Below, one piece after another: positions 15,424 to 24,229 of a stretch of DNA of 53,388 nt. A program made the translations under genes and the position numbers. A model generated the notes under the pieces. That model was not told where the DNA came from. It saw only the letters and a list, made by a program, of their open reading frames with translations, and searched no databases. Origin of the DNA: Phragmitibacter sp. (GTDB lineage: Bacteria > Verrucomicrobiota > Verrucomicrobiia > Verrucomicrobiales > Verrucomicrobiaceae); contig JANYJH010000242.1 in assembly GCA_025361865.1 (NCBI GenBank), forward strand, positions 1 to 53,388, given 5' to 3'. How positions within the stretch are numbered: the first letter of the stretch is position 1; each line of letters starts with the position of its first letter.

Positions 15424-15591
15424 TGGTTTGATCTTCAAAAAGATTGCCCATCGTATTTTGATCAAGGCTGATTTGACAAGATAAATCATGAACTCACCAA
15501 TAATCACGCCCCTTCTCATTTCTGGACTCCGCCAATTTTTCGCCTTAAGAACAGCCTAAAATCAAACTTCGTTTCGACTTCCAAGCAATTG

Positions 15592-17925
15592 ATGGGCACC
15601 AAGAAACACCGCAGCAAAGGCGATCAGCCGTTACCGAATCAGCGGCTCTCGAAGCAGCTTCTTGCGGCGGCCCTCTTGTTGGTGCTCGTGCTTGGCATCC
15701 TCTACTGGGTCACAAAGAAAAATAATTCGGTTGTTGTAAACCCTCCGGCAGTCACCTTGGCAGCTCCTCTTCCTCAAGCCGAGAAGCTCGTATTTCAGGA
15801 ATACGCGGGCTCGCAGAGCTGCCGGGAGTGTCACGCGGCGTTGTTTGAGCAATGGTCAAAGTCCAATCACGGACTCGCTGAGCGGCCTTTGCGCGATGAC
15901 CTGGACAAGGCGGCCTTTGAGCCGGAACGCACCATCCAACACGGCACGCAGACCACCGAAGTGCGCGTGAAGGACGGCAGGCATGAGGTCGTTTCCTTGG
16001 GCTTTGAGAACCAGCAGCAGCCTTATGAAGTGGAGCGTGTCATCGGAAACGATCCCCTGCGGCAGTATTTGGTAAAGGCGTTCGGCGGGCGCTTGCAGAC
16101 GTTGGAAGCCTCGTATGACCCGCATAAGAACGAGTGGTTCAACGTCTATGGAAATGAGGATCGCAAGCCAGGTGAGTGGGGCCATTGGACAGGACGCGGC
16201 ATGACTTGGAACACGATGTGTGCGAGTTGCCACAACACCCGGCTTCGCAAGAATTACGACGAAGCCACCGATTCTTTCCACACTTCGATGGCGGAGATGA
16301 CGGTGAGTTGTGAGGCCTGTCATGGGCCGCTGAAGGCGCATGTGGGTTGGCGGAAGCAGTATCCGAACAGCAAAGAGACCGATCCCACGATCAAGAAACC
16401 CACGCGGAATCAAACGCTGGATTCCTGCGGGGCCTGCCATGCGCGACGCTCTGAACTGACCGGCGATTTCAAACCGGGCGACAACTTCTTTGACCATCAC
16501 GCGCTGGCCATCGTGGATGAGGGTAATCTCTTCCACGCCGACGGCCAAGTGCGCGATGAGGACTATGAATTGTCCTCCTTCCTCAGCAGCAAGATGCACA
16601 CGGCGGGCGTCTCCTGCACCGACTGTCACAATCCACACACGGGCAAAACGATCCTGCCCGGAAACGATCTGTGCATGAGATGCCACGCGGCAGCGACACC
16701 TGCGTTTCCCAAAGCCCCCATCATTAACCTCGCCGCGCATTCTTTCCATCAGCCGCAAAGCACGGGCTCGCAATGCATCAACTGCCACATGCCGCAGACC
16801 GTTTATATGCAGCGTCACTCCCGGCATGACCACGGCTTCACCATCCCTGATCCTTTGTTGACGAAGCAGATCGGCGTGCCGAACGCATGCAATCGCTGCC
16901 ACACAGACAAGGATGCGGACTGGTCGCTCACGGCCACCGAGAAGTGGTATGGAGCCAAGATGGAACGCCCGACGCGATACCGAGCGCTGACCATTGCTGC
17001 GGCTCGAACTGGCAATCCCAGCGCGCGTGAGGGCTTGATGAAGCTCCTTCAAAGCGAGACGGAGAGCGGCTATTGGAAGGCTTCAGCGGTTCGTTTGCTG
17101 GACCCCTTTATGACAGATCGTTCGGTTTTTCCGAGTGTCATCGGCCTTGCTTCTCATGCTGATCCGCTGGTGCGCGCCAGCGTAGCGCGCTCCATGGAAC
17201 CGCTGCTCGTCGTGAACAGTCCATCGGCACGAGCAACGGTGAATCAACTCCTCAGCGATCCCATCCGCAGTGTGAGGCTGGCCGCTGCCTGGTCATTGCG
17301 GAGCACTTTGGATGAAGCCTCGCCAGTGGGTAAGGAGCTGCAACAGATGCTCGCGCTGAATGCGGATCAGCCCAGCGGTCAGCTTCAACAGGGAGCTTAT
17401 TACTTTGCGCGCAATGATGGGCCGAATGCGCTTCTTCACTACCAGAAGGCCGCGCAATGGGACCCGAATTCAGCGCCCATCCGGCATGAACTGGCGGTCG
17501 CTTACAGCACCGTCGGAAAGCCGCAAGAGGCTTTGCATGAGTTGCAGGAAGCGGTCCGCTTGGAGCCGAACACGGCTGAGTATCACTTCAAGCTCTCGCT
17601 CGCCTGTAACGAAGTCGGCGACGTGGAAGGAACGATTCGCTCACTGGAGCAAACCGTGAAACTAGAACCGCAATACGCCCGCGCTTGGTATAACCTTGGC
17701 TTAGCGCGTAATGGCAAGGGAGATGCCGCAGGAGCTGTGAGTGCTCTTAGACAAGGCGAACAGGCGAACCCTAACGATGCCAGTATCCCCTATGCTCGGG
17801 CCACGATTCATGCGCGGCTCAAGCAAATGGATGAGGCCAGAGAGGCGGCTACGAAGGCCGTGCAAATCCAGCCTGAGAACCAAGACGCGCTGCAACTGCT
17901 GAGGTCATTGCAGCCGCGTCAGTGA
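15592..17925 (+). CDS. Octahaem cytochrome c with HEAT and TPR repeats
   Basis: This 777-residue protein has a single N-terminal membrane anchor (residues about 23-44, LLAAALLLVLVLGILYWV) and then eight CxxCH haem motifs: CRECH, CASCH, CEACH, CGACH, CTDCH, CMRCH, CINCH and CNRCH, between residues about 78 and 440. HEAT-like repeats follow (about 460-590), and the C-terminal 190 residues are TPRs (GKPQEALHELQEAVRLEPN, YARAWYNLGLARNGKGDA). It resembles NrfA/Hao-like multihaem scaffolds. Cytochrome-TPR fusions occur in Planctomycetes and Verrucomicrobia, but the redox partner is unknown. It is divergent from vccA across about 170 bases that must hold both promoters. The TTG just before the ATG is not needed as a start. 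Confidence 0.85.
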   Translation: MGTKKHRSKGDQPLPNQRLSKQLLAAALLLVLVLGILYWVTKKNNSVVVNPPAVTLAAPLPQAEKLVFQEYAGSQSCRECHAALFEQWSKSNHGLAERPLRDDLDKAAFEPERTIQHGTQTTEVRVKDGRHEVVSLGFENQQQPYEVERVIGNDPLRQYLVKAFGGRLQTLEASYDPHKNEWFNVYGNEDRKPGEWGHWTGRGMTWNTMCASCHNTRLRKNYDEATDSFHTSMAEMTVSCEACHGPLKAHVGWRKQYPNSKETDPTIKKPTRNQTLDSCGACHARRSELTGDFKPGDNFFDHHALAIVDEGNLFHADGQVRDEDYELSSFLSSKMHTAGVSCTDCHNPHTGKTILPGNDLCMRCHAAATPAFPKAPIINLAAHSFHQPQSTGSQCINCHMPQTVYMQRHSRHDHGFTIPDPLLTKQIGVPNACNRCHTDKDADWSLTATEKWYGAKMERPTRYRALTIAAARTGNPSAREGLMKLLQSETESGYWKASAVRLLDPFMTDRSVFPSVIGLASHADPLVRASVARSMEPLLVVNSPSARATVNQLLSDPIRSVRLAAAWSLRSTLDEASPVGKELQQMLALNADQPSGQLQQGAYYFARNDGPNALLHYQKAAQWDPNSAPIRHELAVAYSTVGKPQEALHELQEAVRLEPNTAEYHFKLSLACNEVGDVEGTIRSLEQTVKLEPQYARAWYNLGLARNGKGDAAGAVSALRQGEQANPNDASIPYARATIHARLKQMDEAREAATKAVQIQPENQDALQLLRSLQPRQ

Positions 17926-20322: not shown

Positions 20323-20913
20323 CTAAGGCTTCTTCGGTTCAAGCGCAGCCTCAGCGGGCTTAGTTTCCGGCGTGGCTTCTTTAACAGCCGTCTTGGAAAC
20401 GGGGCCTGTGGCTTGCGTCCACTTGAAGGTGTCCGGTTTGTCGCCTGTGGTTTCGATCCATTCGCCTTTGAAGGCTTTTTCAGAGCGCAGTTTCCATTGC
20501 TCATCCTGCACTTCATGCAGTGCGCGATTGCTGTCCTTCGCGGCGCGGCGCATCAGAATCATGCGGTCTTCGTTCTCTTCTTTGACGGTCCTTTCAACGT
20601 AGGTTCCCCATTCGCCAGCGGGCTTCGTGCGGAGATGCAGAAGACTCCGGTGATCTTCGCCCACCAAGCGATTGTCCTTCAGTTGCTGCACTTCAGACAT
20701 GCGGTTGCGTTGACGTTCTACGGCTTCTTCGTAGCCCTTCTCCTCAGCGTTCGGCGCGGTGGGTTCCTCGCCCTTGTATTGATAGACATTGAGCCGCACA
20801 TTCACGTCCACCTTGATGGGTTCCGGCGTGCCGAGATTCACCACCGGCAGTTTGCAGGAGCAAAGCGCGAGGCCCAAGACGAGTGCGGGTATTTTCATCA
20901 GATATTCTTTCAT
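20323..20913 (-). CDS. YnbE-YdbL fusion lipoprotein
   Basis: From ATG 20913 this is a 196-residue lipoprotein (ALVLGLALCSC, lipid Cys at about 20); starts further upstream would overlap the ydbH-like gene. Residues about 22-45 hold PEPIKVDVNVRLNVYQY, the hallmark of the tiny outer-membrane lipoprotein YnbE (P-x-x-P-I-x-I-x-x-N-V-x-I). Residues about 80-170 look like YdbL/DUF1318: NRLVGEDHRSLLHLR, then a helix with RMILMRRAAKDSNRALHEV, then FKGEWIETTGDK like the YdbL PGEYVQ-G-W ending. The gene starts 13 bases after the ydbH-like stop. In Escherichia coli these are two separate genes after ydbH; here they appear as one chain. A Pro/Ala/Lys-rich tail ends the protein. Confidence 0.72.
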   Translation of the reverse strand: MKEYLMKIPALVLGLALCSCKLPVVNLGTPEPIKVDVNVRLNVYQYKGEEPTAPNAEEKGYEEAVERQRNRMSEVQQLKDNRLVGEDHRSLLHLRTKPAGEWGTYVERTVKEENEDRMILMRRAAKDSNRALHEVQDEQWKLRSEKAFKGEWIETTGDKPDTFKWTQATGPVSKTAVKEATPETKPAEAALEPKKP

Positions 20914-20926
20914 CGCGAGGGTTTCT

Positions 20927-23900
20927 TCAAGGCGTGGCGTCTGACCGACGAGCCGGTTTGCCTTCATGCTCATCATTCTTCCAGCGGTGGTCATAGACGT
21001 TGACATCGAAATTCCGTGAGCCCGTGGGGCCTTCAAACATGAGCTTTCCAGTGCCTTCGCGACCATACAGCCGGAAGGAGCCGAGCGTCTTGTCATAGTC
21101 GAAGTCGCGCATGGTTTCCAGCCCGATGGTCGTGATTTGTTTGCTCAATGAAGCAATGCTCGCAGGGAGACTGGCGAGGAGTTGATTGAGAGATTGCACG
21201 GAGAACTTGCCGGGGGTGTGGTTCAGAAATTTACCATCCGCCTGGAAGACTTCGTTCATGTCCCCCTGCGCCAGCACGGTGCATTCCACCTGCCCATCCA
21301 TCAGGAAATAACCGGGCAGGAGCTTTTGCGTGATCTCATGCATCTGCACCTTCTTCCCGCCGATCCAGCCGTCCCAAGTAAAACTGTCATCGAGATAGAC
21401 ATTGAATTGGCCGTTCACATAGCCGTCGTAGGCCGCGCCACCGAACTTCCCATAGATGCCAGCCGCATCGTAAGTGACCGTGAGGAAGGCTTTCTCGATG
21501 TGCATTTCCTTCCATCGGATGCGCTCGATTTCAAAGGTTTCCGTGAGGTTGTTATCCTGACCTTTGACGGGAAGATTGAACTTCACCTGGCCCTTCATGC
21601 CCTCGAATCGGAGCTTGAGTTGCTCGTAAGTATAAGTGTCCGGTGGAATCTCAAAGTCGGCCTCAATGATGCCGCGATTCAGCTCACTCGTGAAGCTGAA
21701 CGGAAACGGCGTGCGAAAACCAGGCAGCGGTTTTCCCTTCGGGGCGAGGATCAATTTACCACTGTGAACCTGCAAGGTCTTCACGCTCCAGGCGGCCTGG
21801 CTGGTGGCGGGTTCGTGAGCCATGACGGTCTCCGCCACGGTGATTTCCAGCGCCTTGTCATTCGCTGCTAAAGCCACCGCTTTATTGGAAGGCGTGGGTT
21901 CGTTCGCCGCGTAATTACGATAGAAATCCACATACCAGAACAGGTCCTCGCCGACATAGAGCGTGGGGCTCACGATCTCGATCTTGTCGATCTCTTTCCG
22001 CATTAGACCTTCGAGTGAGAAATCCACGAAGATGCTGTCCAGATCAGCCACCGAGCGCAAAGGTTCGTAAGGCGAAGGGATCTTGATATTGGCTAACTCG
22101 ACACGCTGGGGCGCGACGTTCTTCGCGAATTCTTCAGCCGTGAGCGGTGCGTTCTCGACCTCAAATGAAACGCCGAATCGTAAGTTTGGTATGCCTGGCA
22201 CGACCCGTTCCAACGTGACAAAACTGTCCGCAACACTCATGTCTCCGCATGACCAGAGCTTCTCATCTTTAGGCTTCGGCGCTTCCTTCACCACAGGAGC
22301 CTCGGCGGTGGGCTTCGTCTCCTTCGGCGACTCGAAGTAACTCATCAGCGCTTGTCCTGCTTCTACGCTAGCTCCGGTCAAATGGAGCTCCTGAATGTAG
22401 CGTTGCTTCCACATTTCCGGCAGCTCCACCGCCGCTTCAAACGAAGCCGCCCGCGCCACGGGAAAGGGCGTTTTTGAAAGCGTGGGAAGCCGCGCCTCCA
22501 AATCCTGCACGATGATACGATGCAGATTTCCATCCGTGATCTGCTCCGTTTGAATGCTGATGTTCGTGTGCAAATCCAGCGGCTTATCGGACTCGGTGAG
22601 CAGATCGACATACCCTTTTTCAATGATCAATTGTTCAAAGTTCAACTGCTCCCACAGCGGCGTCTCAGTCGCAGGAGCTTCCGCGCTGGCCTGAGCCGTG
22701 GAAGGTTTCATCCAAGGCGTATTTCCCTCGCGAATCCTTACCACAGGCTGCATGAGCGCGAGCCGTTCAATGCGGTGATCCTTCGCCCAAGTGTCCGGTT
22801 TACAGACCAGCTCACCCTGCGGTAACTCGAAGAAGGGCTTCAACCCTGGATAAAGTAAAACACTGTCCTTTAGCTGCACGGCCTGACTCCGCGTGGAGTG
22901 CCATCCCTCAGGGTCAAAGCGGACATCAGCGAGCTGCACCGCGCCTTTCGTTTGCAGCTCTATTGGCATCAAACGAGGATCAGCGAGATGGATGTTCGCA
23001 TCCTTCAGATGCGCCTCTTTGACATAGAGCGAAGGGCTAGCGACTGGCTTTACGGACGGGTCATTCGCGGGCGGCATCAGCCATTGACTGAGTTCAGCCG
23101 TCCAATTCACATCCAGGTCATCCGCATCGAAAAGCCGCACGATCCAAGGCTTATCCGTTCCCATCGCAGCGAGCGAGAGACTGGCATCACGGCACTTGAT
23201 ATGACCCTCACCAACAGGCGGATGGAGGTCTAGCTTCTCAACGCGGAGGCGTTGGGAAGCAGCGGCTGGGTCACCTGCAAAAGTCCAGTCCACGCTCCCC
23301 GCTTCATAGCTGATCATGCCGGAAATATCAGGCAGCACTAAGCCGGACACGTTGCCTTTAACGAAGCCACTGGAGTCGAGGCTCATCTCATTCAGCTCCA
23401 CTTTGCCGATGCGCATTCCGCGCAGCAGAGGCTCTGCATTGCTGGTCTCCGTGCGGGGCGGTGAACCTGAAAACATGGCGAGCCATTCCGGCTTCAAGTG
23501 CAACTGCGGCTGATCGCAAGTCAGGTGATCCAACTCTAGGTAGCCCTCATGCATTCGACCCTTCACATGCAGACGTTTCAGGGTCAGCGGCGACTCGCCT
23601 TGCGCTCCATTCTTCAGAGCGCCCTGCTCAATCAACAACTCCTGATCGCCCGTTCCCACCTGTCCAGTCTTGGCCACGCTGATGTCAGCGGCATGGTAAG
23701 TCAGGCCGACTTCAGCGACCGCTCCATTGCTTTGCGTGAAGCGCACGCGGGCGTTCTCGATGGCAAATAGACCAAGGCTCAAACCGAAGGGTAACGTGCT
23801 GCTCGCCACTGGCTTGGACGGGTCTGGTCTCAGCAGATTCGCCAAGGTCTTTTCATCCAGATTGATCTCGGGGTTAGCGATGGTCACGGCCTTCACCGCG

Positions 23901-24229
23901 CCTGATGTGAGCTTCTGCCAATCCACGTTCGCCGTGACTTTAGGCAGTCGCAGAACGTTCGTTCCGGTCTCAGGGTCGGTGAGCATCAGATCATGCAGTT
24001 CGATGTTTCCCTCGCGATCAAATTCCACGTTGGTAAGCTTCCCTTTCAGCGGTCCGACTTCGATTAGCGTCCGGTTCACCAAATCAACGCGGTGATCATA
24101 GACCCACTTCAATGCTAGCGCGATGCTTCCAAGCAGCACCAGCATGAACGTAGACGCATACGCCAATAGCCTGCGCCGCCAAGAACGGCGGGGCTTGGGC
24201 TTAGTGGTCTGATCAGGTGGCGCGGACAT
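20927..24229 (-). CDS. YdbH-like AsmA-family intermembrane bridge protein
   Basis: This 1100-residue protein has an N-terminal basic stretch and one membrane helix (LLAYASTFMLVLLGSIALAL, about 25-44), then a very long beta-rich repetitive chain typical of AsmA-like proteins: GPLKGKLTNVEFDREGNIELHDLMLTD, then many short amphipathic strand repeats, with conserved-looking ends EFEIERIRWKEMHIEKAFLTV and MHEITQKLLPGYFLMDGQVECT. In E. coli YdbH spans the periplasm, with YnbE at the outer membrane, and moves phospholipids. The next gene downstream encodes YnbE- and YdbL-like parts, which is the strongest support for this assignment. ruvA lies 82 bases upstream on the same strand. Confidence 0.75.
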   Translation of the reverse strand: MSAPPDQTTKPKPRRSWRRRLLAYASTFMLVLLGSIALALKWVYDHRVDLVNRTLIEVGPLKGKLTNVEFDREGNIELHDLMLTDPETGTNVLRLPKVTANVDWQKLTSGAVKAVTIANPEINLDEKTLANLLRPDPSKPVASSTLPFGLSLGLFAIENARVRFTQSNGAVAEVGLTYHAADISVAKTGQVGTGDQELLIEQGALKNGAQGESPLTLKRLHVKGRMHEGYLELDHLTCDQPQLHLKPEWLAMFSGSPPRTETSNAEPLLRGMRIGKVELNEMSLDSSGFVKGNVSGLVLPDISGMISYEAGSVDWTFAGDPAAASQRLRVEKLDLHPPVGEGHIKCRDASLSLAAMGTDKPWIVRLFDADDLDVNWTAELSQWLMPPANDPSVKPVASPSLYVKEAHLKDANIHLADPRLMPIELQTKGAVQLADVRFDPEGWHSTRSQAVQLKDSVLLYPGLKPFFELPQGELVCKPDTWAKDHRIERLALMQPVVRIREGNTPWMKPSTAQASAEAPATETPLWEQLNFEQLIIEKGYVDLLTESDKPLDLHTNISIQTEQITDGNLHRIIVQDLEARLPTLSKTPFPVARAASFEAAVELPEMWKQRYIQELHLTGASVEAGQALMSYFESPKETKPTAEAPVVKEAPKPKDEKLWSCGDMSVADSFVTLERVVPGIPNLRFGVSFEVENAPLTAEEFAKNVAPQRVELANIKIPSPYEPLRSVADLDSIFVDFSLEGLMRKEIDKIEIVSPTLYVGEDLFWYVDFYRNYAANEPTPSNKAVALAANDKALEITVAETVMAHEPATSQAAWSVKTLQVHSGKLILAPKGKPLPGFRTPFPFSFTSELNRGIIEADFEIPPDTYTYEQLKLRFEGMKGQVKFNLPVKGQDNNLTETFEIERIRWKEMHIEKAFLTVTYDAAGIYGKFGGAAYDGYVNGQFNVYLDDSFTWDGWIGGKKVQMHEITQKLLPGYFLMDGQVECTVLAQGDMNEVFQADGKFLNHTPGKFSVQSLNQLLASLPASIASLSKQITTIGLETMRDFDYDKTLGSFRLYGREGTGKLMFEGPTGSRNFDVNVYDHRWKNDEHEGKPARRSDATP

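Follow-up and report, generated by a model that had tools for sequence, protein, structure and literature searches.

A YnbE–YdbL fusion lipoprotein encoded beside a putative intermembrane bridge protein in Verrucomicrobiota

Introduction

The delivery of phospholipids to the outer membrane has long been an unanswered question. Among the components of one of the 3 routes known in Escherichia coli, YdbL is the one least understood. A 2024 PNAS study of YdbH–YnbE reportedly describes YnbE as extending YdbH by strand augmentation and YdbL as limiting the formation of YnbE multimers. Binding of YdbH to the lipoprotein YnbE has been reported for E. coli (PMC12977461), in which ydbH and ynbE are also translationally coupled (PMC10666635), consistent with production of the 2 proteins in matched amounts. 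Here, we describe a locus on a 53,388-nucleotide stretch of Phragmitibacter sp. DNA (contig JANYJH010000242.1 of assembly GCA_025361865.1; hereafter, the window), in which a YnbE-like and a YdbL-like part are joined in one lipoprotein encoded directly downstream of a gene for a putative bridge protein. In the searchable literature, that is, outside subscription papers, we found no mention of a YnbE–YdbL fusion.

Results

A fused lipoprotein next to a bridge-like gene

The locus comprises the following features:

20927–24229, minus strand: YdbH-like, AsmA-type putative bridge protein (open reading frame [ORF] of 1100 aa, with a predicted N-terminal membrane helix followed by near-continuous beta structure)
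20323–20913, minus strand: YnbE–YdbL fusion lipoprotein (ORF; start at 20913 or 20898)
20857–20913, minus strand: signal peptide and lipobox (LCS↓C), read from the sequence
20779–20856, minus strand: YnbE-like segment (lipid cysteine, TPEP and the predicted bridge-extending strand PIKVDVNVRLNVYQ), aligned by hhalign to E. coli YnbE
20446–20706, minus strand: YdbL/DUF1318 domain, assigned by PF07027, AlphaFold2 (AF2), Foldseek and profile comparison

The lipoprotein gene, separated by 13 nt from the end of the 1100-aa ORF, is likely to start with ATG at 20913 (MKEYLMK...) or 20898 (MKIPAL...), and the codon of the lipid cysteine occupies 20854–20856 on the minus strand. The encoded protein consists of a signal peptide, LCS↓C, KLPVVNLGTPEPIKVDVNVRLNVYQY, a linker of ~30 residues, the DUF1318 domain and a low-complexity tail, with the YnbE-like segment, C-KLPVVNLGTPEPIKVDVNVRLNVY, placed directly after the lipid-anchor cysteine. 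An earlier sequence-only reading of this DNA had proposed precisely such an order, a YnbE-like followed by a YdbL-like segment in a single lipoprotein, and the architecture was borne out by inspection of the ORF, hhalign and DUF1318. The fused frame is open in 47 genomes and is therefore not a sequencing artifact; the presence of a fused YnbE–YdbL lipoprotein next to a bridge-like gene is confirmed.

The YdbL-like half was upheld by both domain and fold. PF07027 (DUF1318) matches the window lipoprotein with 29.5–31 bits, passing the Pfam gathering score of 27, and is matched by all 42 aligned fusions (E ≤ 0.1). The domain is modeled by AF2 with a predicted local distance difference test (pLDDT) score of about 97, and the sole meaningful Protein Data Bank (PDB) match of this model in Foldseek is E. 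coli YdbL (28oj, deposited as "probable chaperone-like protein YdbL"; template modeling [TM] score by target 0.87, root-mean-square deviation 1.7, prob 1.00, E 6e-3). The profile of the fusions recovers 28oj by sequence as well (E 1.8e-13); a PDB sequence search with the single protein returned chance matches only. Here, YdbL forms the C-terminal domain of a lipoprotein instead of being secreted into the periplasm in soluble form by a signal peptide of its own, and its assignment as a YdbL domain, rather than a free YdbL, is firm.

In the other half, a strand of the pattern P-[IV]-x-[IV]-x-[IV]-x comes after the lipid cysteine and shows homology to E. coli YnbE (hhalign Prob 87–92). When compared with E. 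coli YnbE, the profile of 35 window-type fusions gave an alignment that is in register from the lipid cysteine onward (score 26.6, Prob 87, single-comparison E 3.9e-6), and none of 300 shuffled versions of E. coli YnbE reached this score (best, 20.3). With Spartobacteria and Omnitrophota sequences added to the profile, the score was 29.1 (Prob 92, E 8e-7), compared with a best of 16.7 among 200 column shuffles, one anomalous shuffle aside. In 4 of the 6 column-shuffle comparisons, one shuffle per 200 gave an impossible score of ~130; 2 of these anomalies, with 11–12 aligned columns, were inspected and attributed to a numerical error in the program. Apart from them, shuffles in the 2 comparisons scored at most 16.7 and 18.1, whereas the real scores were 29.1 and 21.9, respectively. 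The fusions from Omnitrophota read C-ATVKVQAPKEPIKVDVTMRLDVYQH, intermediate between C-TPRIEVAAPKEPITINMNVKIEHE of E. coli and the window, with the wording APKEPIKVDVTMRLDVYQH linking the window type to APKEPITINMNVKIEHE of E. coli.

The AF2 model of the 1100-aa neighbor (mean pLDDT 77.7) has an N-terminal membrane anchor (helix 18–45) followed by almost continuous strands, the last at 1070–1078, which are predicted to form a long beta groove. Foldseek matched the model best to the bridge-like lipid-transfer complex of LPD-3 (E 8e-17, prob 1.00) and to TamB in TamAB (prob 0.99). DUF748 scores 44.7 bits, under its cut-off of 50. The C-terminal ~200 residues align with Verrucomicrobia YdbH over 207 columns (hhalign E 7e-9), with the block E-[TA]-[LM]-[RK]-D-F-x-Y in common; a solved YdbH structure was not found in the PDB. 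Judged by these comparisons, the neighbor is a divergent, putative bridge protein C-terminally related to Verrucomicrobia YdbH. The proposal that a YdbH-like gene directly precedes the fusion accordingly holds for adjacency, bridge-like architecture and C-terminal relationship, but not for membership in the Pfam YdbH family. The genome of the window also carries one TamB; therefore, any knock-out phenotype may be masked.

Fused and split loci across the phylum

DUF1318 was found in 91 of the 241 genomes sampled from the phylum. About 118 loci, including the window, were read. Of these, 51 (in 47 genomes) are fused, 47 encode YnbE in a gene of its own ahead of YdbL, and ~20 gave no YnbE by the lipobox and strand pattern, which supplies the survey of split and fused forms that the sequence-only reading had suggested. 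The relatives of the window lipoprotein belong to Verrucomicrobiaceae and Prosthecobacter, in line with the phylum far from Enterobacteria named in the sequence-only reading, and more distant ones to Terrimicrobiaceae, bins labeled Spartobacteria/Chthoniobacter and Candidatus Omnitrophota. The fusions are of 2 sequence types: 35 are window-like, and 16 carry the KPI-H-IT-DVN-KVD wording of the separate YnbEs and match a hidden Markov model (HMM) of the latter with E values of 1e-8 to 1e-17. True YdbH, as defined by Pfam (52–110 bits), was the neighbor of the tested loci with separate YnbE and YdbL as well as of the second fusion type.

Of 50 fused loci, 42 have a large ORF immediately upstream; the count was made automatically and overlooks some neighbors that are shorter or fragmented. 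Among 38 relatives, the presence of the window-type bridge protein (profile E ≤ 1e-5) agrees with that of DUF1318 (over its cut-off) in 37, with both found in 25 and neither in 12; the exception has a partial bridge match only. Since related species are not independent, this co-occurrence is supporting evidence only. Within the window's family, the form is fused in every member possessing the system. In 5 near-complete genomes of the same family (genus code g8: G007, G015, G020, G023 and G024), neither fusion nor bridge protein was found, reflecting either loss of the whole system or its absence.

Several families showed further arrangements. Four small genomes of family code f8 (about 2.2–2.5 Mb; L131/L132, L165/L166, L167/L168 and L169/L170) have 2 fused YnbE–YdbL genes each, and no large ORF was found directly upstream of the second set. 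In family code f17 (L091, L172, L137 and L174), a single genome carries several YdbL-type genes, and no YnbE was seen close to some of them. In family code f38 (L103, L107 and L123), fused genes have no recognized adjacent YdbH, and the PF11739 matches of these genomes are located on different contigs.

The fusion state changed repeatedly and the fusions lack the YnbE tail

In the YdbH tree, the fused loci of family f18 group with separate f18 loci, and those of f23/f34 with separate f23/f34 loci. A tree in which all fused rows are held together was rejected by 68 log units (p value of the approximately unbiased test, p-AU, 1e-8), a test covering the fused loci whose neighbor is a true YdbH. 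The fused sets with true YdbH thus do not form one clade, and the fusion state has changed repeatedly. In the DUF1318 tree, the window type, the bridge neighbor of which is different and divergent, forms its own starred group of 34 rows; the fused label requires 4 changes on this tree, of which the starred branches force only 1. Because DUF1318 alone is too short to fix the number of origins, the YdbH tree was used in its place; the trees have long branches and quick-tree support. Three fusions would be the simplest reading, because E. coli is split, but the changes of state may be gains or losses of the fusion.

Fused and separate proteins also differ at the end of the YnbE part. An FF-G-D-L-D-like tail (as DDFFGDLD) ends 42 of the 47 separate Verrucomicrobia YnbEs, 4 of the other 5 sharing a different tail and one being a near miss, and is present in 0 of 51 fusions. 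The tail played no part in the choice of the loci, which were selected by lipobox and strand pattern, but the tail pattern itself was written after the separate proteins had been viewed. Within f18 and f23/f34, the tail occurs in the nearest separate relatives and is missing from the fused proteins; 2 fusions of f23 retain a shortened remnant (L-D-x-Y-F-D). The tail could be the part of YnbE recognized by free YdbL, or it could simply have been lost at the join.

Other features of the window

An N-acetylmuramoyl-L-alanine amidase gene (PF01520; 19483–20283, minus strand), the product of which has a lipobox-like N-terminus, follows the fusion gene on this strand after a gap of 39 nt. A larger conserved operon, with ruvA before and the amidase after, was considered and rejected, the arrangement not being kept in the relatives examined. 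On the plus strand, 15589–17925 encodes a 778-aa protein combining multihaem cytochrome c motifs, HEAT repeats and TPR repeats.

Discussion

We consider it probable that the locus encodes an intermembrane phospholipid bridge of the YdbH/YnbE/YdbL type, in which the outer-membrane strand and its anti-aggregation partner are combined in one lipoprotein. The 1100-aa protein would be anchored in the inner membrane and cross the periplasm with its long beta groove, and the lipid-anchored PIKVDVNVRLNVY segment would add an edge strand to the end of the groove, fastening it to the outer membrane. Through the tether, the YdbL domain would be held at a fixed 1:1 ratio, one cap per strand at the outer membrane, and, by analogy with E. 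coli, may cap the sticky strand, which would then be built into the bridge rather than stack on copies of itself. Strand augmentation, capping, sorting to the outer membrane and phospholipid transport are all features that we infer from the E. coli work, and tethering of the regulator to the outer membrane through the fusion is, on the same analogy, a reasonable inference.

Several results weigh against this assignment. PF13617 (YnbE) has no match in the window protein in a Pfam/NCBIfam search, and the HMM of separate YnbEs matches it weakly (E 0.75); in the AF2 model of the fusion alone, the YnbE-like segment is of low confidence and unstructured, and its strand is not docked on the YdbL domain. 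For the neighbor, PF11739 (YdbH) has no match in the 1100-aa protein or elsewhere in the genome of the window, no direct alignment to E. coli YdbH was obtained, and the Foldseek TM-scores are low, because bridge models are long and curved. Formally, then, Pfam matches only one of the 2 segments, DUF1318, an outcome that the sequence-only reading had named as speaking against itself. It is, however, a weak test. PF13617, a model of 34 positions, matched 3 of 42 fusions, and these weakly (best E 0.015), and among 3 separate Verrucomicrobia YnbEs, it missed 2 and gave the third 22.7 against 25.8, so that its failure on the window protein says little.

The missing YnbE match and the weak HMM score would also be expected if the residues after the lipid cysteine were a generic lipoprotein spacer that happens to resemble YnbE, the protein then being a membrane-anchored YdbL with no YnbE part. 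We regard this as very unlikely: conservation of the segment greatly exceeds that of the adjoining linker, the segment aligns in register with E. coli YnbE at a score that no shuffled sequence attained, the Omnitrophota homologues bridge it to the E. coli wording, and the second fusion type, with clear YnbE homology, has the same strand pattern in the same position. A different function of the whole is also conceivable, with the pair serving an AsmA-type protein engaged in, for example, outer-membrane protein assembly or the movement of another lipid. The partner is indeed DUF748-like rather than a Pfam YdbH, and TamB-type relatives act in protein assembly as well (PMC11014939), but its C-terminal homology to YdbH, its association with YnbE and YdbL as partners and its fold similarity to the lipid-transfer protein LPD-3 make such a role quite unlikely.

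What the fusion itself means is a separate matter. Adjacent, translationally coupled genes may have been joined with the working of the partners unchanged, a reading favored by the shared adjacency and order of the genes in E. coli and split Verrucomicrobia and by the persistence of lineages with both forms. Yet the repeated change of fusion state, the consistently fused form among family members of the window possessing the system and the absence of the tail from every fusion point to an altered interaction of the halves, and we find a neutral fusion unlikely. A tentative, though possible, alternative builds on at least 3 fusions, each with loss of the acidic–aromatic tail: the tail would therefore be the docking site on YnbE that recruits free YdbL, made redundant by the tether, and YdbL would act as a stoichiometric cap at the outer membrane rather than as a passing chaperone.

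Recurrence of the fusion provides strong comparative evidence that YnbE and YdbL work as a pair. The link between the 2 proteins, which the sequence-only reading had put forward as a Rosetta-stone argument from a single locus, is stronger than could be known then, because the fusion recurs in the phylum. A recurrent natural fusion would name YnbE as the partner of YdbL and suggests that one copy per strand is enough. It also offers a single-chain protein for structural work, and the tail that the fusions lack is a specific candidate for the site at which YnbE and YdbL meet.

Comparison with known systems

TamB, YhdP and the eukaryotic LPD-3 resemble the predicted bridge of the window in their long repeating beta-groove architecture, LPD-3 and TamB also matching it structurally, whereas comparison of the 1100-aa protein with E. 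coli TamB and YhdP gave nothing significant at the sequence level. To our knowledge, no YnbE or YdbL partner has been described for TamB, YhdP or LPD-3. Closer are the split ydbH-ynbE-ydbL loci of Verrucomicrobiota, which have the same genes in the same order and a YdbH homologous at the C-terminus; in these, YnbE is a short separate lipoprotein, usually with the FF-G-D-L-D-like tail, and YdbL has its own secretion signal. Although the window locus differs from the E. coli YdbH–YnbE–YdbL bridge in carrying YnbE and YdbL in one chain, in lacking the YnbE tail and in its divergent bridge protein outside PF11739, the two share the gene order, the lipid-anchored strand protein, the YdbL domain with its fold and a bridge protein that is beta-rich and, in the window by prediction, anchored in the inner membrane.

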